From contig JAKFXR010000034.1 of the NCBI GenBank assembly GCA_021731285.1, positions 1-57,785 on the forward strand: DNA of 57,785 nt, read 5' to 3'. The position numbers and the translations under genes were made by a program. Numbering within the stretch: position 1 is the stretch's first letter; each line of letters starts with the position of its first letter. This stretch comes from Polaromonas sp. (GTDB taxonomy: Bacteria > Pseudomonadota > Gammaproteobacteria > Burkholderiales > Burkholderiaceae_C). The notes below the pieces were generated by a model. It ran no database searches and was not told the DNA's origin. It was given only the letters and a program-made list of their open reading frames with translations. This document shows, one piece after another, positions 4,232 through 25,134 of the stretch.

Positions 4232-7200
4232 ACGCCGACAAGATCATCGGCCGTGTCGTGGCGTCCCTCCTGCTATCGAGGTTGCCGTCGATTCCCGAAG
4301 GCGCGCCTCAGCCCGACCCCTCTTATTTCCGCCTCGACAAGCTTGATGGGAGCCAAATCGCTGCGGCTGTCCGCGAGATCCGCCTTAATTCCTTGCTAGC
4401 CGACAGGGTGGAACTCAAAATTCCGCGATGGCTGGTGGCGGGTGAGGGGCTGCCTGAGGACACCTTGACGTCGCACAACGCCGGAGCCGCGCGCAACGAG
4501 GGGACAACCAAGAGTGTCATGCTCACGGCGAATGGCTCCGAGCCCGGTTTGGCGGACACCCTGGGGCACGTCGCTGCGCTTGGAGCTAAGGAGTTGCGCT
4601 CGCACGAACATTTTTGGGTCGAAGCGACTTGCCACGTTGCATCCCTCGCGCCCACTGTCGAGGATCGCGCGATCTTTGCCGCAGCCATCTCCGGGCTGGT
4701 TCACGTCACCGACCTATCACTGGTGCAGCTGGGCGAGTTCTGCTCGAAGATGAGCGAGGCGTTCCATCCATCACGTGGCTTGCCCATTAGGAACGCCGTG
4801 GGTTGGGCGCTTCCCTGCGTCGGTCTTCCCCGCGACACCGCCGTCTTCGCGAGCTCGAAGACCTACGGCAAACAGGTGGGGCCGTGGCGCAAAGCGTTTG
4901 GCAAGTTGTTCACAACGCGACAGCCTTTGATATTTAAAAGGCGTCCCACTGGGCAGCCCATCGACGCCGAAGACATGCGCGCCAGGTTCGAAGACAACTT
5001 GGCGTCGATCTCCGCTGCGGCGCAGCCTGTGCTCGATGCGTTCATCAACGCCCCAGACTCCGACGACGCCGCGCGAGTTCAAGTGGCCGAGCTGGAATGG
5101 GAAACCGATGGAGTCCACTTCATCTTTGAAAAGCCGCGCGAGCAGCAACGCGGCCTTGCGGAGGACACGCTCTACCATTTCGAAAACGGCGTCAACGAGC
5201 CGGTTCTCACCAAGGAATGGCTTGACCATCTGGAAGACCTGAAGACGCGCGAAAAGCGCTCCGAATGGAATGATGCGGACGAAGTGTTCTTCAACGGACA
5301 CCGCTCATACATCGAGGAGAACAAGCCGCTGCTCGCCAAGTGGGAAAAGATCGTCTACGGCAAGCCCATCGACTGCGACGACTTCTTTGAAGGATTCTCG
5401 GAGCTGGTCTCCCGGCTGGTGGCGAGCGCGCCTGAGCCCAAAGGCGAGCGAGTTTTGCACATGACCGTGACAAAGGGCCGCACGGCTTGGCGTGAGCGAT
5501 TCAACTACGACGTGGGATCGTATTTCTCCGCAATGTATCGCGGCTTGAAGGAGCTCATGGGAGACCGAGTCCGATGGCATTCGACCAAGATGCACGGGGC
5601 AGTCCATCTCGACCCTCTCTTTGCCTATCGAGCCTTTTTCCAAGCCGAGAAGGAGCGCCTGGCCAAACCTCCCAAGCCATCCGATTCCGTGGCGCGCGCG
5701 GCAGTCCAAATCAAATTTGACGCCGTGCTCTACGAGCGCGTTGGAAGCGACGAGGTCCAGCTTCGGAAGAGCCAGCTCGTCTGGTCTTTCAAGCCGGATG
5801 CGATCGGGCTGGCGATGGTCGACGACATGAAGCGCTTGATGGAGAAGGGCGGCATCAACTGCACTTCCGTCCCGCGCAGGCTAGTCAGTAAAAAGGGTGG
5901 GGTGCAAAGCGTATCGCTTGACGACACCTCGACTTTGGAAGCGACGTTCGCTTCGGACGCGGGGTCGCTGGTGCCTCCGGCCGGCAAGCTTCGCAGCATG
6001 CGCCAAGACATCAAGCGGCGCATCGACGACTTGACGGCGCAGGACAGGCTCTCCACGGAGCAGCGCGACGCAATTCGCGAGGCTTGGGACCGGTTCGAAT
6101 CGGATTACGCGGAAGCTATGCAGGACTTCATTGCTTTCGGTCTCCACGGAGAAGCGGTGGAGCGCCAGTCCGAGTCATACGCGGAGTTGCTGCGAGCATT
6201 GGCAGTTCATGCCAGGGGAGACATCTGCCGGTCGAAGCTGGTCGCCGAAGTTTTAGCAATAGGGACCGTGCGCGTGGCTGGCGAACAGCCATGCGTTATT
6301 GTTCCGCCGTGGCACCCCGAACGGATGAAGGCGCTTGCAGTCAAAACTCGTCGCGTTGCCGGCCTCGCGTCGCATTTGCTTGCCGGAGTGGACGTGCGCT
6401 TTGGCGACCACGGAATCTTCACCAAGGAATTTTCCGACGAGATTCGGCATCCCTTTTATCCGGAGATCGCGATAGCCGAGCGCGAAAAAACTTCCGAGTT
6501 GGTCACTGAGAGCGCGACGGTCAACGGTTACAGCTTGATGGAAATTCCGGTGAACACCGAGCAGGAGTTCCTCACTGACGTTGACCCCACCGCCGCCGCG
6601 AAGCACGTCAAGGAGCTTCTGGAGCGCTACGTCGGCCTCCAGCCTCACGAGGCGAGCAATCTAAGCGTTCTTCTTTACAACGCCGACGCCGCGGAGTTGC
6701 CGCTGGCCGTGGTCCATGAATTGTCTCGAGTGCAGGCGGAGCGCGAAGACGAGTTCCAATGCGCGGTGGCCGTGCGCCACCGAGATCCTGAAAAGCTTCG
6801 CCGCGTCTACGCGGAGCTAGTCACCAAAGCCGGGGACGATCCTGACTTGCCGGTGGTGAGCGAGACTTCGGAAAACTTCGTGTCGAAGCTGCGCATAGCG
6901 GCCGTCCCGTCTTCTTCTACGCCCCAGTCGTCGGCCGGTTTCAAGCCCTTTGACATTGCTTTTCTGCACGACGTTGTGTCCCGAACGGCAGGCGTCGAAT
7001 GGATCAAGGTTCAATGGTCCAACGACCGCCCAAGCTATGAGCACGCGCCATCTCGATGGTCGTATCGGAGCGTCTCCGGCGAGGACGAGCTGAAATCGAC
7101 GACCTTCCTAACGTGCCCTCAGCAGACGGCTACCGGCTGGGCGTATGTCGCTGCCGTGGGCTCTGTGGTGCGTCGGTCCGACCCAGTCGACGGCGAGCGG

Positions 7201-9651: not shown

Positions 9652-10613
9652 AAGCAGTCGCTGCGTTGCTCGCCGGCGGGCTGTTGAGCATTGGCGTGTT
9701 TGCTGCTAGCGGGAACGCGGGAGGGGCGGCCGCGCAAGCTACGCCTCCCTTGCCAGCGGCTGCCCCTATGGCCACCGGCGCTTCTGCTGCCGTGCCAGGG
9801 CTAGTGGACGAGCGTCTCCGCTTGGAGCTTGCAAACGCTGCGTCGAGGCTCACATCTCTCGAAACTTCCATCGCGAAATCAGGGGAGAAGGCTGATCAAG
9901 TCGCCCTGCGGACTTCAACCTTTGCCTTGTATACCGCCCTAGGAGCGGCATTTCTCGCCGCACTTTTCAGCTTTGCGGCGCAAGCTCTGTTGATGTGGCA
10001 TCAGCGACGAATCAATCGTGCCGATTCTGAGGCGAAGGTCGCCAATACCTATATCGAATGGCAATTGCAGCAGTTGTCGGAGCTCTATGGTCCGATACGC
10101 GCATTGCTTGGGCAGTCCAACGTGTTGTATCGCCAGATGAACAGGGCTTTGGTCGCTGCCGATTCCAAAAAATTCAAACTCATCCCAGGGGACGATTTTG
10201 ACGGCCAAGAGTTTCAGATTTTCCACAATGGGGCTTGGTTGCGATTTCGAACCGTCAAGCATCTGGAAGAGGTCTACAACAAGGATTTTGGAGTAGAGCC
10301 GTATTTTGATGATGTCGTCGATGTGGGCGAACGGTTGGTGGATGTGATCCGCGAAAAAGCAGGGTTTGCCCGGCCCGAGGATGACGCGCTGGTGAAAGTC
10401 ATGGGCGACTATCTTGCGCATTACTTGGTGCTAAGGCGGCTGTTGAATCGAGCTAAGGATGGTGAGAAGTTGCATGTCAATGCGGCGGATGAACATGCCA
10501 CGTTCCCGAATCAGATCCAGGAATTGGTCGACAATGGCTTCAAAGCAATCAATGAGCAGGTTATGGAGTGGCGAAATTTTTCAGGAACGCGAAAAAATCA
10601 GCCTCGAATGTGA
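9648..10613 (+). CDS. Single-pass membrane protein with coiled-coil, fourth gene of the ssp effector operon
   Basis: 321 residues. The ATG overlaps the sspH stop as ATGA, so it is translationally coupled to the effector genes. The N-terminus is signal-like (MKAVAALLAGGLLSIGVFAA) followed by an Ala/Pro-rich stretch. A helical segment about 52-90 and a strong membrane helix at about 92-117 (ALYTALGAAFLAALFSFAAQ) lead into a charged cytoplasmic domain starting HQRRINRADSEAKVANTY. The 200-residue C-terminal domain is helical and not recognised. It is not one of the named Ssp or Dpt components I know. The position suggests membrane anchoring or sensing for the SspFGH complex, but that is inference. 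Confidence 0.75.
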   Translation: MKAVAALLAGGLLSIGVFAASGNAGGAAAQATPPLPAAAPMATGASAAVPGLVDERLRLELANAASRLTSLETSIAKSGEKADQVALRTSTFALYTALGAAFLAALFSFAAQALLMWHQRRINRADSEAKVANTYIEWQLQQLSELYGPIRALLGQSNVLYRQMNRALVAADSKKFKLIPGDDFDGQEFQIFHNGAWLRFRTVKHLEEVYNKDFGVEPYFDDVVDVGERLVDVIREKAGFARPEDDALVKVMGDYLAHYLVLRRLLNRAKDGEKLHVNAADEHATFPNQIQELVDNGFKAINEQVMEWRNFSGTRKNQPRM

Positions 10614-11200
10614 GCAACGAAACGATCGCTTTTTACGACAGGAATGCTGAACGCTACGCTTGGCAAACGGCGCAGGCCGATTTGTCAGAGCTCTACTCGC
10701 GATTTCTTCCGATTGTTCGACCTGGCGGCCGAATTCTTGATATCGGATGCGGCGGCGGACGAGACCTTCGGGAATTCAAATCTCGCGGATACCACTGCGT
10801 CGGAATTGAGCCCGCGCCTCGGCTTGCTCAATTTGCCCGTGAATATTCCGAGTGCGAAGTTTTAGTGGGCAACGCGGAGGATTTGGAATTCTTCCAGGAG
10901 TTCGATGGCGTGTGGGCTTGCGCATCGCTCCTTCACTTGGATCTCGTGAAGTTCAAAGTCGCAGCGGAAAATATTGCTGCTGCTCTAACTGTCGACGGCG
11001 CGCTGTTCCTCTCAATGCAAGAGGGAGTCGGGCACATGGTCGATGCGGACGGCCGCTTCTACGCGCGATATACAGCTGCGGAACTGAAAGCGATCGTTGG
11101 ATCTTGCGGGTTCACCGTCATCGAGCAGTGGTCCACTCAGGACACCCTGCCGGGGCGAGAGAGCATGGCCTGGCTGAACTTGCTGGCTAAAAAGACGTAG
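10610..11200 (+). CDS. Class I SAM-dependent methyltransferase, last gene of the ssp effector operon
   Basis: 196 residues from a GTG that overlaps the previous stop as GTGA; a longer reading from GTG 10568 would overlap the membrane-protein gene by 46 bp. SAM-binding motif I is RILDIGCGGGRDL, motif II is the acidic GIEPAP, and the post-motif region GVWACASLLHLD is typical of small-molecule or protein methyltransferases. There is no NPPY or PCQ motif, so it is unlikely to be a DNA base methyltransferase. The opening IAFYDRNAERYA is common in this methyltransferase group. Substrate unknown. It ends 8 nt from the end of sspD on the opposite strand. Confidence 0.75.
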   Translation: MSNETIAFYDRNAERYAWQTAQADLSELYSRFLPIVRPGGRILDIGCGGGRDLREFKSRGYHCVGIEPAPRLAQFAREYSECEVLVGNAEDLEFFQEFDGVWACASLLHLDLVKFKVAAENIAAALTVDGALFLSMQEGVGHMVDADGRFYARYTAAELKAIVGSCGFTVIEQWSTQDTLPGRESMAWLNLLAKKT

Positions 11201-11208
11201 ACGCTAGC

Positions 11209-12054
11209 TTATTTGTGACAGACGACGCATGCTCCGCCACCTTCGTCTTCGCCAAATAAATCGTCGAGGTCCTCGCAACCATCCGCAGCCACTGGACGCA
11301 ACGGATTGACGGGTCGGCTGGCCGCTTCGCGCTGTTTGCGGCGCTCGTAGTCAGCCACAATCTGGATAACGCGCGCGGGCTTTTCCAATTCGTCCAAGGG
11401 CTCGCCCTTCGACCAGGTGAAAGGCGAACCGTGTTCCAACGCATTTTTCTCGTAGCTCTTGGCCTCCTCGAATGCCTCGGGATGGCGATCTTTGAGGCGC
11501 ACCCACTCGATCTTTTGCTGGAAGAAACAGAAAGTGCATCCGCTACGCGAGCGCCAGTCGTAATACTTGGGCATGCCCACCCCGGAGGAGTCCAGGATGT
11601 CGTGCACGCCCTTCTTGTCGATGCCATCCTCGCGAAAAGGCAGACGCACTATCAGGTTGGGATGCTTTGTGGTGTAGCCCTCCCGAAATTCCTCATCCGA
11701 ACGTATGGCGACATAGCTAGTCACCTTGTCTCCGGCGGCGAGCATCGGGCGCACCCATTGCTCAAAAGGCGCGAGTTTCAACTGGCGCGTGCACCAACGG
11801 GTTTGAGCTGAGGGCAGGAAGTGGTGGTATTCACGAAGCCAGAAATCAAAGTCCCTGCGGGGGTTCAACCTTGCGATGGGTTTGCCCAGGAAGCCCTCCA
11901 GGCGCCCCAGAAATTCGTAGACCTCCGGCAGCTCTTTGCCGGTGTCGGTGAAGAAATATTCAACATCGAGCTCCGGGTGATGCTGCCTGACGTAGACCGC
12001 AAGAGCCGCGCTGTCGCGGCCGCCAGAGATTCCAAGCACGTGTTTGTCAGCCAT
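11209..12054 (-). CDS. sspD: SspD/DndC-like PP-loop (PAPS reductase family) enzyme of DNA phosphorothioation
   Basis: 281 residues. A PP-loop SGGRDS at residues 10-15 marks the ATP pyrophosphatase/PAPS-reductase fold. Cysteines C88 (RWCTRQLK), C173 and C176 (SGCTFCFF) could hold an iron-sulfur cluster as in DndC, and two more Cys form a C-terminal CVVC. In phosphorothioation systems this enzyme activates the DNA backbone phosphate for sulfur insertion. It is the last gene of the leftward sspB-sspC-sspD operon and its start overlaps the sspC stop by 8 nt. A canonical PAPS reductase for sulfate assimilation is unlikely because no other cys genes are adjacent and the partners are DUF4007 and a large ATPase. 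Confidence 0.82.
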   Translation of the reverse strand: MADKHVLGISGGRDSAALAVYVRQHHPELDVEYFFTDTGKELPEVYEFLGRLEGFLGKPIARLNPRRDFDFWLREYHHFLPSAQTRWCTRQLKLAPFEQWVRPMLAAGDKVTSYVAIRSDEEFREGYTTKHPNLIVRLPFREDGIDKKGVHDILDSSGVGMPKYYDWRSRSGCTFCFFQQKIEWVRLKDRHPEAFEEAKSYEKNALEHGSPFTWSKGEPLDELEKPARVIQIVADYERRKQREAASRPVNPLRPVAADGCEDLDDLFGEDEGGGACVVCHK

Positions 12055-15000
12055 GGGTCGAGCTCCGGTTTGGTTTGTCGTCTTCGGTCAACTGCATCCC
12101 CGCGTTCGCCAGGGCAGCAAGCATCAAGTCGGTGCCCAGCCCCTGGGAGCGCAAGTCTGCCACTAGCCTTTCAGCCATCATGGCGACCTTTGGCGCGTGC
12201 TTCTCGGGCACTGAGAACGAGCGTGAGATCGTCCTGGTTTCGGGACCCGCGCCGAACACCACCGCCCAAGCCTCAGTTTTCGGCTTGCGCCCCTTCACGC
12301 CCACGAACGCCTCGTCACGCCGAAACCGAAGCGCCGCCTGCGCAATTTCAAGCTTTGCCGCGTCGATGTCCCTGTCGTTCCAATCGCGAGGCGGCTTGTT
12401 CGCCGAAAGGCTTAGGATGCCCTCCATGCTTTCTCGGCCGCCGTCGTGCTTCGCCAATCGAGAGCAAAAAGCTTCCTGGCGAAGGTCCCCGCTAATTCCA
12501 TCGAGCATTTCTGCGCGAGCGCGCAGCGTAGCGAAGTCTTCGCGCGAACCGTCAAGTTCGGCGAGCATGGAGTCCTCGATTCCGCGCAGGAGCTCGTCGT
12601 ATGCGGTCACAAGCTCCGCGACGGGCTCGCGCAACTCCTCGGCGAATTGCGTTCCCGCCTTGCTGTCCAGCACCGCCGGCAGGTCAATGAACAGCACCTT
12701 GTGCGGGTCGCTTGCTTTGAGCAAGGTGTCGCGGACGGCGCGGGCTTTCGGGCTCAGGCGCTGCGTGCGCTGGGTCCACGCTGGCAAAGCGAAGACGAGG
12801 GCAACCAGGCCGCGCGCGGCTTCAAGCGGATCCATGGAGGCAGGAGCGGCCCGCAACTCCGACAGCACCTTCGCCACGGCTTGCAAGATCTCGGTCTTCT
12901 GCTCATCAATGACGATCCATCGCAGCGAAAACCGCTTCGTGTCTTGCAAATATTCGTCGAAGTCCGCATCTGTCAATTCGGGGATAAACACACCGTCCTT
13001 GTAGACCGCCAAGTTTCCACGGTTTGCCAGGACGAAAGCCGTGAAGTAGACAGGCATCAGGCCGGATCGCATGCCGTAGGGAGGCTGGGACCATAGTTTT
13101 TCGATGTCGATCACCGAAAGGCGAGCAGGCGCCTCAATGAGCAATTTTTTGGTTGCATCCCACACTGGGAGAAATGTCCTGGAGAGCTCGTCGGTCTCCT
13201 GGGGGGCCTTCAAGCGCCACGTCCCGTCTCCAGCGGGAACGTGCAAGCCCACGTGGGACAGCAAAGCCACATGCAGCCCACGCTCGGCCGGAAAGCCTTC
13301 GATGCCGAGATGCTCCACGGCTTCGTGGCTCAGCATCCTGTGAATAAGGTCGCGACGGGCCTTTACGCTATTGCTCGACGGACTCTCCCGGTTGACCAGC
13401 TCGCTCCAGACTTCTGGGGCCTTGTCATAGAGCTTGTCGGCGAGTTCGGATGCGATGCGCGAGAGCCTCATGCCGCTCCTGGCGGGTTCGGCGCCGATTT
13501 GCCAGCGAGCGTTTGCTATGCCTGCTCGCAGCGCCTCTTGCAGCCCAGAGCGCACGTCGGCGAGCCTGGCATGCACTTCGCGCCGGGCCACCCGGTCCCC
13601 GCTGAGCTCGTGGCGGCCTTGCACCTGCTGCAAAGCGACCAGCTCGCCGCCGAGGTCTTCGATCTTGGCGTGGTTCGGCGGCACGCCGACGACGACCGGC
13701 CATGGACGGGAGCGCGCGTATTGCGCGGCTTGGCGCGAGGACGTTTTGGCGTTCTCCCCGCGTTCGGGCAGCGCTAGGACAAAAAGTCCGAAGTCCCCAT
13801 TGGTCGGCGCGAATTTCTCCGCGACCTTCGACGCTTCCGAAAGCCTGCACAGCGCCATGTTCATCCAGCGCATCGTGCCGGTGTAGTGGTAGTGGCGCTT
13901 TGCGACCACTGGATGCAGGTTGGCCAGGCTAGATAGCAGGGCGAAGTCAAGATGAGGCTGGGCGGAGCGGGCCTGAGCGATGGCCGCCTCGATGTCGAAG
14001 TCGCTGCCTTCGAAAACTGACCATGCTCCGATATGCTTTTTGAACAGAAGCACTTTGAGCGCGGTGAGGCTCTCAAGGGCTTCGTCGACCTCTGGCCGGG
14101 GAATGTCGCTGAAAATCGCCGCGAGCACGTCTGGCTCGGCAGCCAGACCGGACCCGTTGCGAAACAGGTCGATCACAGCGACGTTCTTGATCAGCGCGAC
14201 TTGCAGAGGATTGCCAGACTTGGCCTCCGCGCGCTCCACGGCCTCAACGGCCTGCGCCCAGCGATGCCCGTCGGGGGACGCGAGGATGGCGGGCTCCAAA
14301 TTGGCCCGGAGGTAGTCCCAATAGTCATCGGGTCGATACCAGCGCGGACTCGAGGCCAACGTCGATTGCAAATAAGCGCGAAAGCCAGACGGTTCGACAG
14401 ACGCCAAAAATCCAAAGACGCTGCGTTCGTTTTGCCCAAACTGCCGCTTGGAGATGGGGCCGAGCAGGGCCGCCATGGCGGGATGCAGGGGCCAGCACCG
14501 CGCCAGGCTAGCTGCGAAATTAGGCCCTACCGCTGGGCGCCTCGACCTGATGGAGTCGGCGATGGCTTGAGCCGGCGGCGGCACCCAGTTTTCGTGCTTC
14601 TGGCCTTCGATGGCGCGACCAATCAACTCCACGACTTCATCGCTCGCGGCGACAAGTGGGATGTCGGCGTAGCGGCCTTGAACTTTGGCCCAGTCGTCGC
14701 GCGTGTCGATGCCCAATCGCTTCGCGTATTGCGCAAACGCCTGATGCAAGATGCCAACGACGACGACTTTGCCCTTGGCCCGCCCGCCGAGTTCAGCCAG
14801 GTCTTGATAAAAATTCAAGTCGTCGCCAACGCCAACGGCCGAGGCTTCCAAGAATTTGCCCATCTCGTCGATGAGCACGAGGACGCCGTCCCACTGTCGC
14901 GAGTCGGCGAGGTCGCAAATTTTTTCGATCAAAGCCGTCGGGGTGAGCTTCTTCGGCTCGCCGCGCCCGCCAACCGCTTTATGCAGCGCCTTGGTGAGCT

Positions 15001-15391
15001 CATCGACCACGCTCGCGAGCTTGCCAACAGCGGGCAGCACCAACCATCCTCGCCTGCAGGCGAAAGCTGTGTCGAAGGAGTCGATCTTGTCCGTCGCCAG
15101 CAGCTCGCGGGCCTTTTGCCTGACGGGCTTGGACTCCGAAAGCGCGCTGGCCAAAGCCACGGCGAGGGACGATTTTCCCCCGCCGAATGGCCCCGTCCAG
15201 GTGAAGGCGCGTTGGTTGCCCTGCGTGAGCTGCCGGGACATGCTCTCGAGCACGCCCCTCGCCGTGGCATGGCACACGTAGCCATCGAGCGCGTCAGATC
15301 GTCCTAGGTCGGCGTCGATGCGGATCGAGCGTTGATACAGCCTCGAAATTCGGACGACTTCGGAGAGCGGGGCGTCTTTGAGGTCACGCAT
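12047..15391 (-). CDS. sspC: SspC-like large P-loop ATPase of the phosphorothioation modification module
   Basis: 1114 residues. Walker A is GPFGGGKS at 67-74 and Walker B is LVLIDEMGKF with D175-E176, followed by the AAA/STAND-like stretch KGKVVVVGILHQAFAQYAKR. The C-terminal two thirds are long and helical with no recognised enzyme motif. SspC is the ATPase of the SspBCD complex, which works with the nickase SspB and the PP-loop enzyme SspD to place phosphorothioates on one strand. The gene overlaps both neighbours by 8 nt, supporting a single operon. Similar large ATPases occur in BREX, but no pglZ or brxL gene is present. Confidence 0.78.
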   Translation of the reverse strand: MRDLKDAPLSEVVRISRLYQRSIRIDADLGRSDALDGYVCHATARGVLESMSRQLTQGNQRAFTWTGPFGGGKSSLAVALASALSESKPVRQKARELLATDKIDSFDTAFACRRGWLVLPAVGKLASVVDELTKALHKAVGGRGEPKKLTPTALIEKICDLADSRQWDGVLVLIDEMGKFLEASAVGVGDDLNFYQDLAELGGRAKGKVVVVGILHQAFAQYAKRLGIDTRDDWAKVQGRYADIPLVAASDEVVELIGRAIEGQKHENWVPPPAQAIADSIRSRRPAVGPNFAASLARCWPLHPAMAALLGPISKRQFGQNERSVFGFLASVEPSGFRAYLQSTLASSPRWYRPDDYWDYLRANLEPAILASPDGHRWAQAVEAVERAEAKSGNPLQVALIKNVAVIDLFRNGSGLAAEPDVLAAIFSDIPRPEVDEALESLTALKVLLFKKHIGAWSVFEGSDFDIEAAIAQARSAQPHLDFALLSSLANLHPVVAKRHYHYTGTMRWMNMALCRLSEASKVAEKFAPTNGDFGLFVLALPERGENAKTSSRQAAQYARSRPWPVVVGVPPNHAKIEDLGGELVALQQVQGRHELSGDRVARREVHARLADVRSGLQEALRAGIANARWQIGAEPARSGMRLSRIASELADKLYDKAPEVWSELVNRESPSSNSVKARRDLIHRMLSHEAVEHLGIEGFPAERGLHVALLSHVGLHVPAGDGTWRLKAPQETDELSRTFLPVWDATKKLLIEAPARLSVIDIEKLWSQPPYGMRSGLMPVYFTAFVLANRGNLAVYKDGVFIPELTDADFDEYLQDTKRFSLRWIVIDEQKTEILQAVAKVLSELRAAPASMDPLEAARGLVALVFALPAWTQRTQRLSPKARAVRDTLLKASDPHKVLFIDLPAVLDSKAGTQFAEELREPVAELVTAYDELLRGIEDSMLAELDGSREDFATLRARAEMLDGISGDLRQEAFCSRLAKHDGGRESMEGILSLSANKPPRDWNDRDIDAAKLEIAQAALRFRRDEAFVGVKGRKPKTEAWAVVFGAGPETRTISRSFSVPEKHAPKVAMMAERLVADLRSQGLGTDLMLAALANAGMQLTEDDKPNRSSTHG

Positions 15392-16307
15392 ACGCTTGCT
15401 TCATCATGCGCGTTGAGAGGTTCGTGCCCTTCGCGCGGTTGCGCAGCACTTGGCGAAGACCCGCCGTGTCGGTCCATGTGAGCACGCCATGCGTGAGCTC
15501 TTCAAGTCCGAACAGCCTCTCGGCCACCGACTCTTCGTCGAGCTTGAAAACGCGGCCGGGAGATCCCTCGCCGTAGGCGATGGCTTCGAATGGGAGCGAG
15601 CTCAGATCTTTCGCCGCGCGGTCCCAGTAGTCGAGAAGCGCGAAGGCGAAAAGGCCGTCGCTCAGCGTCGCCTTGGGCCCTCGGCGAAAGGCGAAGTGCC
15701 CCTTGCGCTCTTCGTAAATGAGGCCGAGTTCGGCAAGCATCGGCTCAGCGTATTCCTCAGGCGAGCCGCCTACCGCGCGCGGCGCGTAGCCACGCAGACA
15801 AGTCTCAATGTCGCGCGAGAACGTCGCAGGGGAAAGCCGCCGATTCGCATCGATGCTCTTGGCGTAGTCGGCGAGGGGCGCCTCCAACTCGTCGCGGGTG
15901 AAGGACGAGCCGGTGACATGGTTGAAGAGCCAATACCAGGTGGTTGCGCGCTTGCCGCGGCCCGCCAAACACCAATGGCAATACCAAGCAGTGCTCGGGT
16001 GCTCGGAGTAGGGGTCAAGGCCGTCATCGACGAAGATTTGGCGGCCCATGGGAGTGACGGGGAAGTTTCCACCGTCATCGTCGTCGGTGATGATGTCGCA
16101 GGCCAGAGCCCAATGGCGAATGGACGCCACCATGTTCTTGCCGACCCCAAACTGCGCGATCGCGTCCTCGTTGGCGAATGCAGCTCTCGGAACGACGCCG
16201 TCGATGGCTTGATCGACAGTCTTCTTCAGCCACATCTGACGGAGCGGAAAAGTCTCATGCCCTGCGAAATGGGCAGCGATTCCGTCAGTGGTCTTTTTTC
16301 TTCTCAT
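15384..16307 (-). CDS. sspB: SspB-like DUF4007 DNA nickase of the phosphorothioation module
   Basis: 307 residues. The DUF4007 signature is at the N-terminus: FAGHETFPLRQMWLKK with H17, E18 and R23, followed by the VGKNMVASIRHWALA helix-turn-helix-like segment. DUF4007 proteins pair with PP-loop enzymes in phosphorothioation loci, and SspB is reported to nick DNA as the first step of sulfur insertion. It is the first gene of the leftward operon. Its promoter must lie in 16308-16526, where two inverted repeats are found. No cysteine desulfurase gene (sspA) accompanies it; a housekeeping IscS could provide sulfur. Confidence 0.8.
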   Translation of the reverse strand: MRRKKTTDGIAAHFAGHETFPLRQMWLKKTVDQAIDGVVPRAAFANEDAIAQFGVGKNMVASIRHWALACDIITDDDDGGNFPVTPMGRQIFVDDGLDPYSEHPSTAWYCHWCLAGRGKRATTWYWLFNHVTGSSFTRDELEAPLADYAKSIDANRRLSPATFSRDIETCLRGYAPRAVGGSPEEYAEPMLAELGLIYEERKGHFAFRRGPKATLSDGLFAFALLDYWDRAAKDLSSLPFEAIAYGEGSPGRVFKLDEESVAERLFGLEELTHGVLTWTDTAGLRQVLRNRAKGTNLSTRMMKQAYA

Positions 16308-16526: not shown

Positions 16527-17825
16527 TCAGGCCCGCACTCGCGGCATGTCTTCCCAACATGTTGTGTAGGCTGGTGTGCGCCGCTCTTGCTTCATGCTCC
16601 ATGCGCGCTTTGCGCCAGCGGTGCCGGAGCTGCCGACAATCACCGTTCCCTTGCCGTAGCGGCGGTTGAGGACGTCCATCGCCGTCATAAGCCTGCCAGC
16701 GTCTTTGGGCTCGTCGTCAAGATCGAGCTCGTCTTGAACAATCGAATCCGGCTGCAGGTCGAGCAGCATCACTCCTGCCTTGGCGTAGCGAAACTCCGGT
16801 TTGTAAATTGCGTCCAGACCCAGGACGGCCGCCCCGGCGATCTTGATGGTGTCGCAACTTGGGCGGCGCAGGGGAATGGTGATCGAGCGTGAATACTGCG
16901 GGTCGTCCTTGCGAAATGGGCTCGTCCGGATGAAGACATGCACTTGGCCCGCCAAGCCGCGCTGCTTGCGCAGCTTCTCTGACGCCCGCGCTGCGAAGTC
17001 CGTCACCGCTTCCGTGAGGTCAGCTTTTGATGTCACGACCTGCCCAAAAGACCGCGTGCTCGCGATCTCCTTCTTGTCTGGCGGGATGTCTTCAATGTCC
17101 ACGCAGGACACACCTTGGAGCTCGCGGACGGTGCGCTCCAACACCACGCTCCAACCGCGGCGCACGGTGGCGGCGTCGAGCTTGACCAAGTCGGCGACAG
17201 TGAATACGCCCCCAGTGTTGAGCTGCACGGCGATCCGCCGGCCGATACCCCAAACCTCTTCCACGTTGGTGTGTGCGAAGACGTCTAGGAGTTCGTCAGG
17301 CGAAAGCGTCGAAAAGTCGCACACCTGCGAGAGCTTGGCCGGGTAGGAGCCTGGCTTGCGCTCTGCGGTCTTGGCGACGTGGTTCGCGAGCTTCGCCAAG
17401 GTTTTGGTCTGGCCGATGCCGATCCCGCAGGGTATGCCCACCCAGTCGAGGATCCGGTCGCGCATCCTGCGGCCGCGAGCCACATGGTCGCCACGCACGC
17501 CAGTGAGGTCGATAAAGCTCTCGTCGATGGAGTAGATCTCCTGGCGGGGACCGAAGCCTGCGGTGAGGCTCGCGACCCGGTCGCTGATGTCCCCGTAGAG
17601 AGCGAAGTTGGCCGAGAGGGCGATGAGGCCGTGCGACTCCTCCATGTGCCGGATCTGGAACCAGGGCGCGCCCATCTTGATGCCAAGCGCCTTCGCCTCG
17701 TTGCTCCTGGCAATGGCGCAGCCGTCGTTGTTGGAGAGCACGATGACGGGCAAACCGTTGAGCGAGGGCCGGAACACCCGCTCGCAGCTCACGTAGAAAT
17801 TGTTCCCGTCGATCAGCGCGAACAT
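16527..17825 (-). CDS. umuC: UmuC, catalytic subunit of error-prone DNA polymerase V
   Basis: 432 residues, full length for UmuC. It opens with [16 protein letters not shown], giving the first catalytic Asp, and carries [12 protein letters not shown] with the Asp-Glu pair of Y-family polymerases, then helix-hairpin-helix elements ([14 protein letters not shown]) and the little-finger domain. It performs translesion synthesis after SOS induction, activated by cleaved UmuD. It follows umuD by 3 nt in a leftward operon preceded by a LexA box. Island-borne umuDC copies are common on plasmids and integrative elements; whether the host has a second copy cannot be seen. Confidence 0.95.
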
Positions 17826-17828
17826 AGC

Positions 17829-18263
17829 TCAGTGCACGTTGAACGATTTGATGGCCGTGAGGACCACGCCCCAGACGAGCAGGGTCTGGCCTTCTTTGGG
17901 AACGATGTCGGCGTAGGTCGGGTTGCCCGCTCTGAGTTTGAGCACCCCGTTGCGCTTCCACAGGAATTTGACCACGAACTCGTTGTCCAAGTTCGCCACG
18001 ACTATGTGGCCGTGCCTAGGCCGGATCGCCCGGTCCACCAGCAGGATGTCGCCGTCGAAGATGCCGTATTCCACCATCGATTCGCCCGAGGTCCGCATGA
18101 CGTAGGTCGCGGCAGGGTGCAGGATGAGCTTCTCCAGCACGTCGATGCGCGTGGCGCCCAGGTCCTCGGCCGGCGACGGAAAGCCCGCCTTGACCTTGGC
18201 GGCCAGCTCTTGAAGCCATACGGGCGACACGTCCAGAAGCTGGGGCAATGCATAGGCGTCCAT
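17829..18263 (-). CDS. umuD: UmuD-like self-cleaving accessory protein (S24 peptidase)
   Basis: 144 residues, the usual UmuD size. The probable autocleavage site is Ala26-Gly27 in KVKAGFPSPAED. The catalytic Ser-Lys dyad is S62 in TSGESM and K99 in FVVKF, close to S60/K97 of E. coli UmuD. After RecA-stimulated self-cleavage UmuD' binds UmuC. The gene lies directly upstream of umuC and downstream of a 63-codon gene, all leftward. No N-terminal DNA-binding domain is present, so it is not a LexA-type repressor. Confidence 0.93.
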   Translation of the reverse strand: MDAYALPQLLDVSPVWLQELAAKVKAGFPSPAEDLGATRIDVLEKLILHPAATYVMRTSGESMVEYGIFDGDILLVDRAIRPRHGHIVVANLDNEFVVKFLWKRNGVLKLRAGNPTYADIVPKEGQTLLVWGVVLTAIKSFNVH

Positions 18264-18284
18264 CGGCGAGTTCGCGCGGGCGCG

Positions 18285-18476
18285 TCATTGCAGGGGGGTG
18301 GTGATCGGGCTCAGCCAGCGCGCTGCCGCCTCTTCGGGCGGCAAGGCGCGCAGGTCGGCGTCGTTCCAAATGACAACCGCCGCTTCCTCCAACTGGGCCT
18401 GATTTACCGTCACCCAGCGCTCGTGTAGGCGCTCAGCGCACTTCGCGATCCATTGGGAGGGGGTGAGGCTGTCCAT
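18285..18476 (-). CDS. Small hypothetical protein, first gene of the SOS umuDC operon
   Basis: 63 residues from the ATG at 18476 (MDSLTPSQWIAKCAERLHER). The open frame extends further upstream but would run across the LexA box, so this start is preferred. There is no clear Shine-Dalgarno sequence and the ATG is only 10 nt from the SOS box, so the transcript may be leaderless. The protein is helical and acidic toward the C-terminus (PPEEAAARWL). I know of no function. Position 21 nt before umuD makes it part of the damage-inducible operon. Confidence 0.6.
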   Translation of the reverse strand: MDSLTPSQWIAKCAERLHERWVTVNQAQLEEAAVVIWNDADLRALPPEEAAARWLSPITTPLQ

Positions 18477-18486
18477 GTTGGAATGA

Positions 18487-18506
18487 TACTGTATAAATAG
18501 ACAGTA
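18487..18506. promoter_or_regulatory. LexA/SOS box
   Basis: TACTGTATAAATAGACAGTA matches the LexA consensus (CTGT, eight bases, ACAG, inside TACTG...CAGTA). It is 10 nt upstream of the leftward 63-codon gene and umuDC, and 50 nt upstream of the rightward membrane-protein gene, so it may repress both directions. Confidence 0.9.
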
Positions 18507-18556
18507 TTGGGCAAGGCAGGTGGCACAATCTTTCCATCCACTGGGGGACTTGCTGA

Positions 18557-19816
18557 ATGAACAACAACGACTTTCCAAACGCCGACTGGCGCGGCCTCAG
18601 CGCCACGCGGCAATTTCTCGACCAGGCTGATCAAAACCGTCGGCTGCTCGGCCTTGGCCGGGATGCGTTCAATTCCGTGCGCGACGTGCTGTCCATCAAT
18701 GACAAGTTGTTCGGCGAGACCGAACGTCTCGCCAAGGCGTTCAGGGAGTTGGATGGCGGCTGGCGCAACAGCATCGCTAGCACCGCGCGAAGCGCAATGG
18801 ATTCCCATCAGCGGATGTTTGAAGCTGCCACCGGCCCGCTAATGAAGCTACGCGCCGACACCCTTTACGAAGATCAAATCAAGCGCGCGACTTCCGCTCT
18901 GGGCAATCCTCTGGCCAGCATGTTCAAGGACGCGAACGTAGCCAGCAGCATGTTCGATAGCCTGCGCGGCATCAGCGCCACCGACGCCATCGCCAAACAG
19001 ATCACGGCCTCGCTGCAGAGCCACACGCTCAGCCACCTCGCCGAACTCGCCAAGCCGCTCAGCAGCGTGAGCGACCAAATCTCCAAAGAATTGGACCGCG
19101 TCAAGGGGCTTGGGAGCATGTTCGACCCCGGCGACTGGGCGCGGCGCTTAGGCGTCCCCATGCTGGATGCTGCGTCGATCGCGACGGTCGCGCGGTCATG
19201 GGGCGCGGATGACGCCATGCGCGCTTTGCGAGGCATTGGCGGCGTCGACCTTGAAACCGTGCGGCAGATCGCAGCGCAGATTCGCGCGGAGGAGAGTTTG
19301 GGCGACGAGGCCACGCCCGGAAAGCTGTCGGGCGTGGGAAAGCAGGGCGGCGGAATGTCCCTCGAGCTGCTCCTCAGCATCTTCGCCATCGTTCTCTCGA
19401 TCGCGATGTATCAATGGCAGAAGGAAGACTCCGAGGAGATGGAAGCCAGGCTGAGGGCTGACAACCGCGCGTTGTCCGCACAAATCCAGGACTTGTCGAC
19501 CCGGGCCGAGGCCGCGGAACGTAGGAATGCGGAACGAATCGAAAATTTAACGAATGCCTTCGAGCGCGCGATGAACCAAATCGATGCCGGGGTGGCGACG
19601 CAATCAAAGTTCATCGTGCGAGCGCGTGGGGCCTCGATTCGCGCCAAGAAGGGCGGGCGCGCAACTGCCGGCGAAGCTCTCCCCGGTCAGTCCGTCACCC
19701 TGATTTCCGAGCAGGGGGATTGGATTGAGATCGCTTACTTCAACTATCAGACCGGGCAACAGGCAAGCGGGTGGGCGCTGAAGAAATACTTCGCGCGAGT
19801 CCGAGCCAGGCGATAG
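18557..19816 (+). CDS. Membrane protein with coiled coil and C-terminal SH3-like domain, divergent from umuDC
   Basis: 419 residues; ATG preceded by GGGGGA at 8 nt. The first 265 residues are predicted helical, rich in Ala and Ser, with no recognised motif. A membrane helix follows at about 267-286 (SLELLLSIFAIVLSIAMY), then a coiled coil about 290-345 (EEMEARLRADNRALSAQIQD), and a bacterial SH3-type domain about 353-417 with the usual ARGASIRAKKG...GDWIEIAY...GWALKKYF pattern. Such domains bind peptides or cell-wall material. The gene shares its upstream region with the SOS box of umuDC, so it may be damage-induced. Not a known umu-associated gene; a defence or stress-envelope role is possible. 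Confidence 0.7.
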   Translation: MNNNDFPNADWRGLSATRQFLDQADQNRRLLGLGRDAFNSVRDVLSINDKLFGETERLAKAFRELDGGWRNSIASTARSAMDSHQRMFEAATGPLMKLRADTLYEDQIKRATSALGNPLASMFKDANVASSMFDSLRGISATDAIAKQITASLQSHTLSHLAELAKPLSSVSDQISKELDRVKGLGSMFDPGDWARRLGVPMLDAASIATVARSWGADDAMRALRGIGGVDLETVRQIAAQIRAEESLGDEATPGKLSGVGKQGGGMSLELLLSIFAIVLSIAMYQWQKEDSEEMEARLRADNRALSAQIQDLSTRAEAAERRNAERIENLTNAFERAMNQIDAGVATQSKFIVRARGASIRAKKGGRATAGEALPGQSVTLISEQGDWIEIAYFNYQTGQQASGWALKKYFARVRARR

Positions 19817-19892: not shown

Positions 19893-19970
<78 letters not shown>

Positions 19971-20107: not shown

Positions 20108-20224
20108 ATGAACATCGCAAAAGCCATCAACATTTGCCGTGGAGCCCACTCGCCAAGGGACTGCGTCACTCCCATCGCCATTGGGCCCGCAGCCCAAACG
20201 GTGCGCGTCCCGCGCAAACCGTGA
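20108..20224 (+). CDS. 38-codon ORF, possible remnant of a helix-turn-helix regulator
   Basis: ATG at 20108 after AGGATT, giving MNIAKAINICRGAHSPRDCV. The first eleven residues resemble the start of Xre-family regulators, and the +2 frame continues with AKGLRHSHRHWARSP, which faintly resembles the next helix, so this could be a frameshifted fragment. Alternatively it is a leader peptide, since its stop overlaps a GTG (GTGA at 20221) that opens the long downstream frame. Confidence 0.35.
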   Translation: MNIAKAINICRGAHSPRDCVTPIAIGPAAQTVRVPRKP

Positions 20225-21606
20225 GCAATAAAAAGATGCGCGAGTCAGGCGCGGCGCGACCCTCGCAGCCCAGCGGGAAAACGATCAAGCAAACTGCGGA
20301 CGAAAGCGTCCGTCGTCAAGTCGACGTGTCGGACCCCTTGTTCGTCGCAGCGGTGAGGCAGGCAAAAATATGGCGGACTGGCGATAGGACCCTCCATGAG
20401 GAATATCTGCGCACCGCAATGGATCGACTGCTGGCTGGGCAGATTCCGAGGGCCATCAGCGTCTCCATCGACTATCCAGGAGCGAGCACGTCTTGGACCT
20501 TTTCCTTCGGCGAAGGAGAGCTTGCGCGCGAAGTGCAGTTCGACTCCTCGCCGATGGAAGAACTATCCGTTCCGGAATTTAACGATGACGGGACGAGTCG
20601 GCATCTCCATTTGACCGAAATGCAGCCAAAGCAGATCGAGATGATCGCGAACGCCGGCATCGATTTTGAAACTTCCGCCACTCGGCCGCTCGTCCCCTCG
20701 CGAAAGGGCTTGATTAGGCTCGCGAATCAATCGTCGCTCATTTTTGCATCGAGGATCGACGAGGGACCGCGCGTTGACGCGTGGCGATTCTCCTTCGGGG
20801 TCCCTTGGAAGCGCGAGCAGACCAAAGATTATTTCGTGACCGTTCCTAAGTCCACGCCATGGGAGCTGCAATACGAATTTCAAAACGCAGCGCGTCACGA
20901 AGCCGTCGAAGGCGTCGTAGTTAAAAACCATGGAGGGGCGATGGGCAGGAACGAGGCTCAGATCGTTCTCGACAGGTTGAGCAAGATCGCGTCGAGCTAC
21001 AAAGAGATGAACGCGCTCGACTATCAATTCATGAACAACTACGCGAACGCCCACCGTGAGTTGGTGAACGTTTTCACCCAGATGGACAGCGAAATTCGCG
21101 ATGAGATGATGCTGTTGGCCTATGAGGAGGTGTCCCCCTTGGAAGCGTTGTCGAAGCTTGACCATCGGAACACCGAGCAGACAAATTTTGGGCGGTTTCT
21201 TGTGCTTGTGCGTTTTTGCTGCGGATACTTCGGAAACTTGGCGCAAGGCGACAGGTTGACGGACGAGGAGGTTGTCGCGCTCATGTTTGCTTATGAATGC
21301 TATTGGCGCGAGGGAGAGGATTTTCTATTGGGCAATTTGGTGGATAGCATGCTGCGTCGAATTGGTCCAAGCGGGTCCTGGTCGTGGCCGCCGGAACCCG
21401 ACTTCCAAGGCTTGGAGAGCAATCGTCAGCGCCAATGGCTCGCGCGCGAGGTGGGGAAGGAAATACTTGAACTGGCGACTTTTTATCGGCATTCCCAGCC
21501 GGGCTTAGAGGCTTTCAGCATGAGCAAGCCCACCAAGCCAACCTTTCGCGATTTCAAGGCGACTCGAAACCAGATCAACGCTGTCGCGAAGTCATTGGAG
21601 CAGTAA
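20221..21606 (+). CDS. Hypothetical protein of unknown function in the accessory region
   Basis: 461 residues from the GTG at 20221, which overlaps the stop of the preceding small ORF; an ATG at 20134 in the same frame would overlap that ORF and encode an unlikely Arg/His-rich tail. The protein appears soluble. The N-terminal third is Ser/Lys/Thr-rich, the middle contains beta-type stretches (SVSIDYPGASTSWTFSFGEG), and the C-terminal half is helical (YQFMNNYANAHRELVNVF). No catalytic motif was recognised. It may be an uncharacterised defence or regulatory component given its setting, but nothing in the sequence shows that. Confidence 0.65.
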   Translation: MSNKKMRESGAARPSQPSGKTIKQTADESVRRQVDVSDPLFVAAVRQAKIWRTGDRTLHEEYLRTAMDRLLAGQIPRAISVSIDYPGASTSWTFSFGEGELAREVQFDSSPMEELSVPEFNDDGTSRHLHLTEMQPKQIEMIANAGIDFETSATRPLVPSRKGLIRLANQSSLIFASRIDEGPRVDAWRFSFGVPWKREQTKDYFVTVPKSTPWELQYEFQNAARHEAVEGVVVKNHGGAMGRNEAQIVLDRLSKIASSYKEMNALDYQFMNNYANAHRELVNVFTQMDSEIRDEMMLLAYEEVSPLEALSKLDHRNTEQTNFGRFLVLVRFCCGYFGNLAQGDRLTDEEVVALMFAYECYWREGEDFLLGNLVDSMLRRIGPSGSWSWPPEPDFQGLESNRQRQWLAREVGKEILELATFYRHSQPGLEAFSMSKPTKPTFRDFKATRNQINAVAKSLEQ

Positions 21607-22893: not shown

Positions 22894-24288
22894 CTATGCC
22901 TGTTTGTTAAGACGCCTGCTGATTTCTCTCGCCAGCGGCAAAGCAATGGCGTTTCCAGCATGCCGTAGGGCATGCCGGCGGTTCTCGTGCTGGACAGCCC
23001 ACTCCGGCATTCCCTGCATGCGGGCGGCCTCTCGCGGCGTGAGCGGCCTGGCCCCGCCATTGACCTTGTAGGCCCCGGTGAACTGGGCTGCTCCGCCGCT
23101 CCCGGCCAGGAGCGAGATGCCCACGCCCTTTGGCGAGTAGACCCTGTAGCCCTGGCTGTTTTTGCCCCGGACGAAGCCAACGCGGTGCATCTTGCCGACG
23201 CGGATCGCGGGTTCCGGCTGTAGGTCGGTGAGTTCGTCTTCCATGAGGGTGGCTGGCAAGTCCGGCTCCATGATGTCGGCCACGCATGCGGTGGGCGCGC
23301 TTTCGTCAGGAAATACGTAACCGAGCAGCGAGTCTACGTCCACGCCAATGCGGGTGCAGATCAGGATGGACCGCTCGCGGTCTTGAGGCACTCCAAAGCC
23401 TGCGGCGTTCATGGCCCGGGCCTGCACGCGGTAGCCGGCCGCGTTCATGGTGGCGATGAATTCGTCGCAGTGCTTGCCGGCATCCAGGGTCAGGAAGCGG
23501 CGAGCGCACTCCACGATGACGACTTTGGCATCGACTTCACCCAGCACCCGCATGGCGTGCTTGTAGGCATTGGCAAGCACTGGATCGGCAAAGCCCAAGC
23601 CGTTTCCGGCCGGGGAGAAAGCCTGGCAAAGCAGGCCGACTGTCACGAAGTCCACTTTGGTCATGGAGCAATCCAGCGTGCAGATGTCGCCATGCGTGCG
23701 AAGCGGGCGGACGTTCTTACGGTAGACCGCCATGGCTTCGGGATCGATCTCGCAGGCGAGTTCAACCTTTGCCCCGAGGCTCATGAGGCCCATGGAGAAG
23801 CCGCCGTGGCCGCCTGCGAACAAGTCGATGACGGTCATGCCGCGAAGAGGTAGGGTCTCGTCCTTGTCTCGGACCTTACTGATCGCCGTCGCCATCCACT
23901 CCCGCAGGCTCTCGACCTTGTCCGCCCAATCCACGGAGTCGGAGGTGCGGTGCTTCTGGGCGCGAACCATGCGAAGACCCCGATCCATCGCCGCCTCGAC
24001 GGCTTCACTTCTGCTCTCAAAGCGTTTGGAGCCCGAGTGCAGAGGACTGACGTCCATAGGCAGCCCATCGGCTCGGCACGCCCAGCCAGGCTCCGCGATC
24101 CACTGGCCTTCTTCGACCGCGTGGGCTCTCACAGTGAACTCAATGCCATGCGGCTCCTTTAAGAGCTTGGCAGAACTGAACTTTCGGATGAGGACGAATG
24201 TAGGTTGGGCAATGACGCCGCGCGTGTTGAAGAGGGAGGGCGCGACTGCGCTCTTGGCGATGCCGACAACGGCTTGATTAACTTTCAC
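22894..24288 (-). CDS. C5-cytosine DNA methyltransferase, solitary, with atypical active-site motifs
   Basis: 464 residues from a GTG at 24288 with GGAG upstream; the frame is open for another 17 codons. Motif I is DLFAGGHGGFS (about residue 155), motif IV is LCQAFSPAGNGLGF (catalytic Cys near 221) in place of PCQPFS, motif VI is VECARRF in place of ENV, motif VIII is QDRERS, and motif X is AGNAIALPLA. An N-terminal extension of about 145 residues has no recognised domain. The key Cys, Glu and Arg are kept, so it should be active. No restriction enzyme or Vsr-like gene is adjacent, suggesting an orphan protective or regulatory methylase typical of mobile elements. Confidence 0.85.
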   Translation of the reverse strand: MKVNQAVVGIAKSAVAPSLFNTRGVIAQPTFVLIRKFSSAKLLKEPHGIEFTVRAHAVEEGQWIAEPGWACRADGLPMDVSPLHSGSKRFESRSEAVEAAMDRGLRMVRAQKHRTSDSVDWADKVESLREWMATAISKVRDKDETLPLRGMTVIDLFAGGHGGFSMGLMSLGAKVELACEIDPEAMAVYRKNVRPLRTHGDICTLDCSMTKVDFVTVGLLCQAFSPAGNGLGFADPVLANAYKHAMRVLGEVDAKVVIVECARRFLTLDAGKHCDEFIATMNAAGYRVQARAMNAAGFGVPQDRERSILICTRIGVDVDSLLGYVFPDESAPTACVADIMEPDLPATLMEDELTDLQPEPAIRVGKMHRVGFVRGKNSQGYRVYSPKGVGISLLAGSGGAAQFTGAYKVNGGARPLTPREAARMQGMPEWAVQHENRRHALRHAGNAIALPLAREISRRLNKQA

Positions 24289-25134
24289 TTGGGGTGCTCC
24301 GAAGCATTCGCCACAGCTCACGCCATGGCCCCACGGCAATCGCCATGGGTGCTTCGGACGCCGGTTTCGCGGAGACCCGCTAGCGGCTCCGCCGGCGGCA
24401 TGCCGGCGTCATATTCGACAGCCCGTCCGAGGATGATTCCCCGCCGCTTCATGCGGCTTAGCTGTATCGATTTGGGCGTAGTTCCCAGGTGCTTGTCGGC
24501 CTTCTTAGCCCTCGCGTTTCATGCCATCGCGAGGGGAGGGTTCTGCCATCAAAAATGGGTTTGAGCCGATGCCTCAATTGTATGGAGAGCTGCGGATTTG
24601 AGGCGTTCGGCCGTGCTCGATCTTGCGCTCAACTTCCCTCAAGGGTGCGGGTGCTCTGGGGGGACTGCGAAAGCGAGATTGAAGCCCGCGCTCAGGGAAA
24701 ATTAATGAACCCCTTGGTAGTGGACCATCATGGGCGTGTGTTTTCCGGCCGGGCTGGCCATGTCGGAAGGAAGGTCTGGAAGGTTCACTGGAGTTTCAGG
24801 CGGCGTCGGTGAGGGGCTGAATACACGGGTGAACTCAGGGTTGCAGCAGGCAGCGGGCCGAACCGGGGAAAATAATAGCACCTGCCGGTCCCGACTGGCG
24901 GTACATCGCTTTCAAGCACCGCCGCTGCGGCTTGTCAAGGTAAAAAGCGGGGGTGCACGGCAGTGTGCACAAAACCTTACAAAACGCCGCGAAGAATTCG
25001 ACTAAGCAGCGCCGATTCTTCCAAGTAGACTCACAGAACCGAAAGTTGCAGCGCCAAAACAGTGCCACAGGCCGGGCCGTGCCGCACCTGCGGCGATGGC
25101 GCCCGGCTTGAAGACTTCTCCAACAAGGACGCCC
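24289..25134. other. 846-bp stretch without a convincing gene, probable island boundary
   Basis: Short open frames exist but none has a good start site, plausible composition or family resemblance. A GC-rich hairpin (CGCCGGC at 24390-24396 with GCCGGCG at 24402-24408) is visible. I found no tRNA, integrase remnant or repeated attachment core. The region separates accessory genes from the polyene cluster and must hold the promoter for the latter's rightward genes. Confidence 0.5.

Follow-up and report, generated by a model that had tools for sequence, protein, structure and literature searches.

A conserved LexA-linked small protein precedes umuDC in a predicted SOS operon of Polaromonas, with a divergent 419-aa gene nearby

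Introduction

Which genes are served by a LexA box that lies between the umuDC side of a Polaromonas locus and a divergent gene? The sequence-only reading of this region proposed that one SOS box is shared by umuDC and a gene for a 419-aa membrane protein, whose expression would thus be induced by DNA damage and which was possibly a division inhibitor or an envelope-stress factor. We addressed this question in the window, the whole analyzed stretch of 57 785 nt, and in related genomes, plasmids and viral contigs. The reading that we favor, with a probability of about 0.78, is that the box serves as LexA operator for an SOS operon that encodes a 63-aa small protein, UmuD and UmuC, with the small protein as the conserved partner of the box and the 419-aa gene as an incidental neighbor.

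Results

The LexA box and its rank in the genome

A pattern scan of the window found the exact CTGT-N8-ACAG core at 18489–18504 and no second exact match in the 57 785 nt. The complete box, TACTGTATAAATAGACAGTA (18487–18506, no strand assigned), was one of five exact TACTGT-N8-ACAGTA sites in a scan of the whole Polaromonas assembly (4.0 Mb, 87.6% complete). It had been described as perfect, which is true of the two half-sites, both of which are exact, but not of the 8-nt center ATAAATAG, which is not self-complementary. Among the other four exact sites, two are located at further umuDC loci (contigs C56 and C88), one on contig C93 is followed after 10 nt by an ORF that we take to be radA, and the remaining one is on contig C4. 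When two mismatches were allowed, the pattern gave 23 matches against 100 per strand for the reversed control pattern, so that weak box matches in this assembly carry no meaning. The same genome contains a lexA gene with a score over the cutoff, and because two boxes with one core mismatch each were found 19 nt apart upstream of it, the box of the window fits the type used by the host LexA.

A separate small gene precedes umuDC

The previously given distances of the box from the two start codons agreed with the sequence: 10 nt to the ATG on the - strand (18476–18474) and 50 nt to the ATG on the + strand (18557). The divergent ATGs are separated by just 80 nt, a spacing that places any box near both of them, and the 50-nt distance is therefore not independent evidence of shared control. 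The start at 10 nt, which had been assigned to the umuDC side, does not belong to umuD but to a separate 63-aa ORF (18285–18476, - strand), the first gene of the predicted SOS operon. It is followed on the same strand after 21 nt by umuD (17829–18263; NF007621, 133.6 bits against a cutoff of 110; Peptidase_S24), encoding the autoproteolytic subunit of Pol V, and after a further 3 nt by umuC (16527–17825; NF002955, 440.9 bits against a cutoff of 431; IMS, IMS_C and DUF4113), encoding the catalytic subunit. With both proteins over curated cutoffs and their genes adjacent and co-directional, the pair was identified as umuDC.

The region adjoining umuC (813–16307) contains SspF, SspG and SspH together with SspD, SspC and SspB on the opposite strand, which form a defense cluster of the DNA phosphorothioation type; SspA was not among the matches of the ten proteins scanned in this cluster.

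Distribution of the small protein and conservation of its box

Across the taxonomic family, the box and the small-protein gene were found together repeatedly, in most cases with no umuDC and in many with a gene for a SRAP protein close by, which marks the small protein as the partner conserved with the box. A query with the single protein matched 15 of 149 relatives, its own genome included, with three of the matches being weak (E 0.001–0.006). A profile search of 399 genomes of the taxonomic family detected the small protein in 39, the own genome included, which belong to 24 of 141 genera. The named records of small-protein loci (19 loci) came from Polaromonas, Rhodoferax, Caldimonas, Pseudorhodoferax and one Gammaproteobacteria MAG, and further copies were found on three viral contigs and two Variovorax plasmids. 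The cultured Polaromonas JS666 is among the carriers (L063). One of the plasmid copies has a box with one mismatch, and its ORF is covered by no listed gene, the gene table being incomplete; the other (L122) has no box. Samples of the order (399 genomes) and the class (274 genomes), which include few genomes of the same family and in which scoring covered 15 or 22 candidates per genome, gave no profile match beyond the own genome.

For the comparison of upstream regions, the 48 profile matches in the 39 genomes contributed 30 loci, with 18 second copies or weaker matches left out. The loci of the single-protein search (L018–L036), which were mostly the same copies and of which L029, L030, L031 and L036 were weak, were also left out. 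Removal of 5 duplicates from 53 small-ORF loci resulted in 48 distinct copies, including that of the window; the two Variovorax plasmid copies are outside this set. At one place of genome G025 (contig C31, L029/L054), a 150-aa frame near umuDC and a SRAP gene matched the small protein weakly (E 0.0015), and its kinship to the family is uncertain.

A LexA core within 70 nt of the start codon was exact in 28 of the 48 copies and present with at most one mismatch in 39, counts that do not represent 48 independent events because the copies are related and some are near-identical. In control windows of the same loci, 22 of 1683 had a core with one mismatch and none an exact core, while shuffled upstream sequences had a core with 0–1 mismatches in 159 of 9600 cases. 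Nine copies had no box with up to one mismatch inside 70 nt of the assumed start. They comprise a relict (L051), a fragment (L073), three copies with two core mismatches (L057, L061 and L091), one with none of these (L092) and three (L089, L096 and L100) with exact cores elsewhere, which overlap the assumed start or precede it by 184 and 154 nt.

Differences among the 12 Polaromonas copies were distributed over codon positions 1, 2 and 3 as 0.284, 0.192 and 0.572, respectively. They are thus mostly at third positions, as expected of a translated gene.

A predicted promoter merged with the operator

The hexamer TATCAT (18483–18488, - strand), which has two bases in common with the box, was predicted as the -10 element of the small-ORF promoter from the spacing of TANNNT in the family copies, so that a host-type LexA box stands at the putative promoter and overlaps its -10 hexamer. 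For this count we used 46 copies, namely the 48 without L051 and L073, in which the start is missing. Among the 46 copies, 28 have a TANNNT ending 6–7 nt ahead of the start codon, compared with 996 of 23 000 (4.3%) shuffled upstream sequences, a count that is inflated because the -10 borrows its TA from the box wherever the box is 10–11 nt from the ATG, and the two are then not independent. Other spacings were rarer, the next most frequent being 11–12 nt before the start (12 cases). In 10 copies the box lies 18–20 nt from the ATG and does not overlap the hexamer, and TANNNT still ends 6–7 nt before the ATG in 8 of them. A Shine–Dalgarno-like 4-mer was absent in 36 of the 46 copies and present in 10. 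A consensus scan of the intergenic region of the window passed no sigma-70 promoter pair on either strand. The hexamer spacing and the scarcity of Shine–Dalgarno-like motifs suggest a leaderless small-ORF mRNA, whose transcription is predicted to begin at the ATG or right beside it.

Neighbors of the small ORF

Scored by tblastn with the UmuD of the window, umuD was found directly behind the small ORF in only 3 of the 48 copies, which are the window, L059 and the relict L051. With so few such copies, one of them a relict, the tie of the small protein to Pol V itself is thin. In L051, the DNA at 6323–6695 is 91% identical to 18024–18398 of the window and thus represents the remains of a small-ORF–umuD operon, of which the promoter and the N-terminal part of the small ORF are unmatched.

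A SRAP gene was located within about 2.8 kb of 13 of the 48 copies, a lower bound given the unequal flanks (1.5 kb for whole-genome loci and up to 5 kb for named loci). Four of these neighbors (L056, L059, L062 and L064) coincide with PF02586 matches over the cutoff and the other nine were assigned by tblastn similarity. SRAP (PF02586) was found in 51 of 91 genomes, mostly in one to three copies, and since each copy accounts for about one 6-kb neighborhood in 3–5 Mb, 13 of 48 is, as a rough estimate, far above chance. In L059 the small ORF, umuD, umuC and a SRAP gene stand in one row. DNA similarity between the window and this sister operon (compared through L042, a longer stretch of the same place) covers 16543–18494 and stops inside the box. 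The LexA operator and the SRAP neighborhood agree in pointing to a role of the small protein in damage tolerance.

In the Polaromonas assembly itself, the exact box on contig C56 (G000:C56:20555–20574, L004) has umuDC on one side and a divergent SRAP gene on the other, the SRAP match being 26 nt away, and the same order of umuDC, box and divergent SRAP gene was found in one other genome, G025, at a single place (L029 and L054). The C56 box may be an SOS box that is truly shared.

Predicted structure and family searches

Using an alignment of 18 sequences, the small protein was predicted to fold into a three-helix bundle (pLDDT 81.9, pTM 0.63), with modeled helices at residues 6–20, 26–38 and 47–55 and a short turn at 40–43. 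Six residues (W9, L17, W21, A33, A50 and W54) are invariant in the wide family alignment. No match at E 0.001 was obtained for the family in Pfam, NCBIfam or PHROGs; the best family match was that of one member to DUF3459 (E 0.0018), and the only recurring one was to NF046112 (three-helix bundle dimerization), which was found for 6 of 31 members with a best E of 0.021. PDB sequences gave no significant match. Two candidate fold relatives were rejected as too weak, namely the best PDB match (E 2.4) and an uncharacterized phage protein that was the best match in the viral library (E 0.35). Identity with YolD was also rejected, as PF08863 was not among the matches of the 31 members at E 0.1 and the model is all helix.

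The divergent 419-aa gene

The 419-aa ORF (18557–19816, + strand) has a GC content of 0.61, 0.48 and 0.77 at codon positions 1–3, which together with its distant homologs makes it look like a real gene. The layout ascribed to its product, a membrane protein with a coiled coil and an SH3-like domain, could be recognized as a helical N-terminus, one hydrophobic segment, a coiled coil and an SH3-like C-terminus, but the match of the C-terminus to SH3_3 (PF08239) stays below threshold (19 bits against a gathering cutoff of 27, E 0.0016), and both the hydrophobic segment, at about residues 269–287, and the coiled coil were read by eye. A single-sequence fold of this protein was discarded for its pLDDT of 44.5, and PDB profile matches of the family were weak (E 0.022 and above).

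No foreign match to the 419-aa protein was found in genome contigs, plasmids, phages, viral contigs or the 149 relatives. The search of the taxonomic family, with four candidates per genome scored, detected it in at least 11 of 399 genomes including its own; besides the own match, five were clear (E 4e-19 to 6e-12) and five weaker (E 4.7e-4 to 8e-3). The five clear relatives (L116–L120) have the same layout at 19–26% identity, come from five genera and adjoin varied genes, for example those of DUF262-like and subtilase-like proteins as judged by reading. A plasmid search with one of the relatives gave no match, and a family profile found the full-length protein in only the own genome among 130 genomes, along with two short C-terminal matches. 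This is possibly an uncharacterized membrane family of genomic islands.

A single LexA box that represses both directions would make the 419-aa protein the product of a genuine SOS gene induced together with Pol V, with LexA blocking polymerase at the divergent -35 region. In favor of this is the short distance (50 nt) between box and start codon. A putative extended -10 element read from the sequence (TGG-CACAAT, 18521–18529, + strand) would place the box at about -49 to -30, over the -35 region, and a ribosome-binding-like site (GGGGGA, 18543–18548, + strand) was also read ahead of the start. Shared boxes are known, as between uvrA and ssb in Escherichia coli according to the available part of one article (PMC3323433), and the arrangement of umuDC, box and divergent SRAP gene on contig C56, repeated in G025, gives a parallel within the same genome. 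Against shared control, the box is present in the window and in none of the five clear 419-aa relatives: no box with 0–1 core mismatches was found in their loci of 3.3–3.9 kb, nor between positions -500 and +250 relative to the first start codon. Likewise, a 419-aa relative was absent from all other small-ORF loci examined, so that the divergent pair, whose conservation had been put forward as a check of the proposal, had no counterpart among them. The consensus scan, which passed no promoter pair for this direction either, and the end of the similarity to the sister operon at 18494 also speak against it. We consider shared control possible, with the odds leaning against it.

Since the DNA shared with the sister operon extends no further than into the box and the five clear 419-aa relatives are boxless, the conserved unit is box–small ORF–umuD–umuC and the 419-aa gene lies outside it. 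From these comparisons, the gene looks like a sporadic neighbor that starts 50 nt from the operator by chance; LexA may repress it by proximity, not as a conserved feature. The prediction of damage-induced expression is accordingly well supported by sequence on the umuDC side but lacks comparative support on the 419-aa side. SOS division inhibitors include SulA, SidA and similar proteins. Our searches found no link of the 419-aa family with division, with envelope stress or with SOS.

Beyond the 419-aa gene, the window contains a perfect 13-copy repeat of the hexamer AGCAGG just past its end (19893–19970), a 490-aa ORF without a Pfam, NCBIfam or PADLOC match (20134–21606) and a C5-cytosine methyltransferase gene (22894–24339).

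Discussion

The box of this locus is best explained as the operator of the small ORF–umuD–umuC operon. LexA bound at 18487–18506 would cover the spacer and part of the -10 hexamer TATCAT of a promoter that is predicted to start transcription at or next to the small-ORF ATG. The operon, if co-transcribed, would be silent until LexA undergoes RecA-stimulated self-cleavage after damage, when the small protein would be made first, probably from a leaderless mRNA, followed by UmuD and UmuC (Pol V). Because its association with the operator is closer than that with any particular gene downstream, the small protein most likely serves the SOS/translesion response as a small helical accessory factor or regulator.

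A sharper form of this explanation, which is compatible with it, is that the small protein acts as a co-regulator of LexA or UmuD and provides SOS feedback in the manner of DdrR or gp7. DdrR of Acinetobacter enhances the binding of UmuDAb and is called unique to that genus in the part of the article available (PMC11332147), and gp7 of phage GIL01 enhances the binding of LexA (PMC4551915). Both are auxiliary proteins of SOS-type repression, and the likeness to the small protein is one of description, not of sequence. The small size, the LexA box in front, the frequent absence of umuDC and the copies on three viral contigs would suit such a role; what speaks against it is that no named family or PDB chain was matched significantly by sequence or by fold. 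We regard this specific function as unlikely, at perhaps one chance in a few. That the small ORF is a leader peptide merely setting umuD translation, as its position 21 nt before umuD in the window might suggest, is very improbable because most copies are without umuD (none was detected by tblastn directly behind 45 of the 48), and the amino-acid sequence stays conserved.

Returning to the favored reading of a conserved small protein at the operator, we regard the small-protein family, with its links to LexA and to damage tolerance, as a better finding than shared control. We would tentatively go further, at somewhat below even odds, and propose that this three-helix SOS family of about 60 aa, found from Polaromonas to Variovorax and having no significant match in the family databases, with its leaderless start and a promoter merged with the LexA box, acts generally on translesion repair, as an accessory factor or a brake, alongside SRAP and Pol V, that is, the lineage's own DdrR- or DinI-like modulator. 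The gene tied closest to the operator is small, has no clear ribosome-binding site and fits no family model, which makes it the kind of gene that annotation misses. If translated, the small protein would add to the SOS/translesion response of a large environmental group a new component that is open to testing, and its leaderless start and the repressor site would be fused into one compact promoter.

Among known systems, a literature search, with supplementary material outside its scope, returned nothing that we recognized as the small-protein family. One hypothetical gene of beta-Proteobacteria, hypA, is a predicted LexA target in a set with Variovorax among its members (PMC3323433, available in part); it could belong to the same family, the comparison being one of descriptions and not of sequences. 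The small SOS proteins YolD and YqjX of Gram-positives resemble the small protein in being SOS-linked and encoded next to umuC-type genes of Y-family polymerases, but in the part of the source available (PMC6511836) YolD has a predicted SH3 beta-barrel fold and a proposed role as counterpart of UmuD, whereas the small protein described here is predicted to be all-helical and, at this locus, accompanies UmuD. SRAP/YedK/HMCES (PF02586), the neighbor of 13 of the 48 copies, is a different and much larger protein. Its location beside umuDC, imuAB-dnaE2 and dinB was already known (PMC3765255), and the portion of that article available does not mention the small protein. With the umuDC (Pol V) SOS operon, finally, the locus shares the LexA box and the order of umuD followed by umuC, and it differs in that a conserved 63-aa gene occupies the promoter-proximal position.
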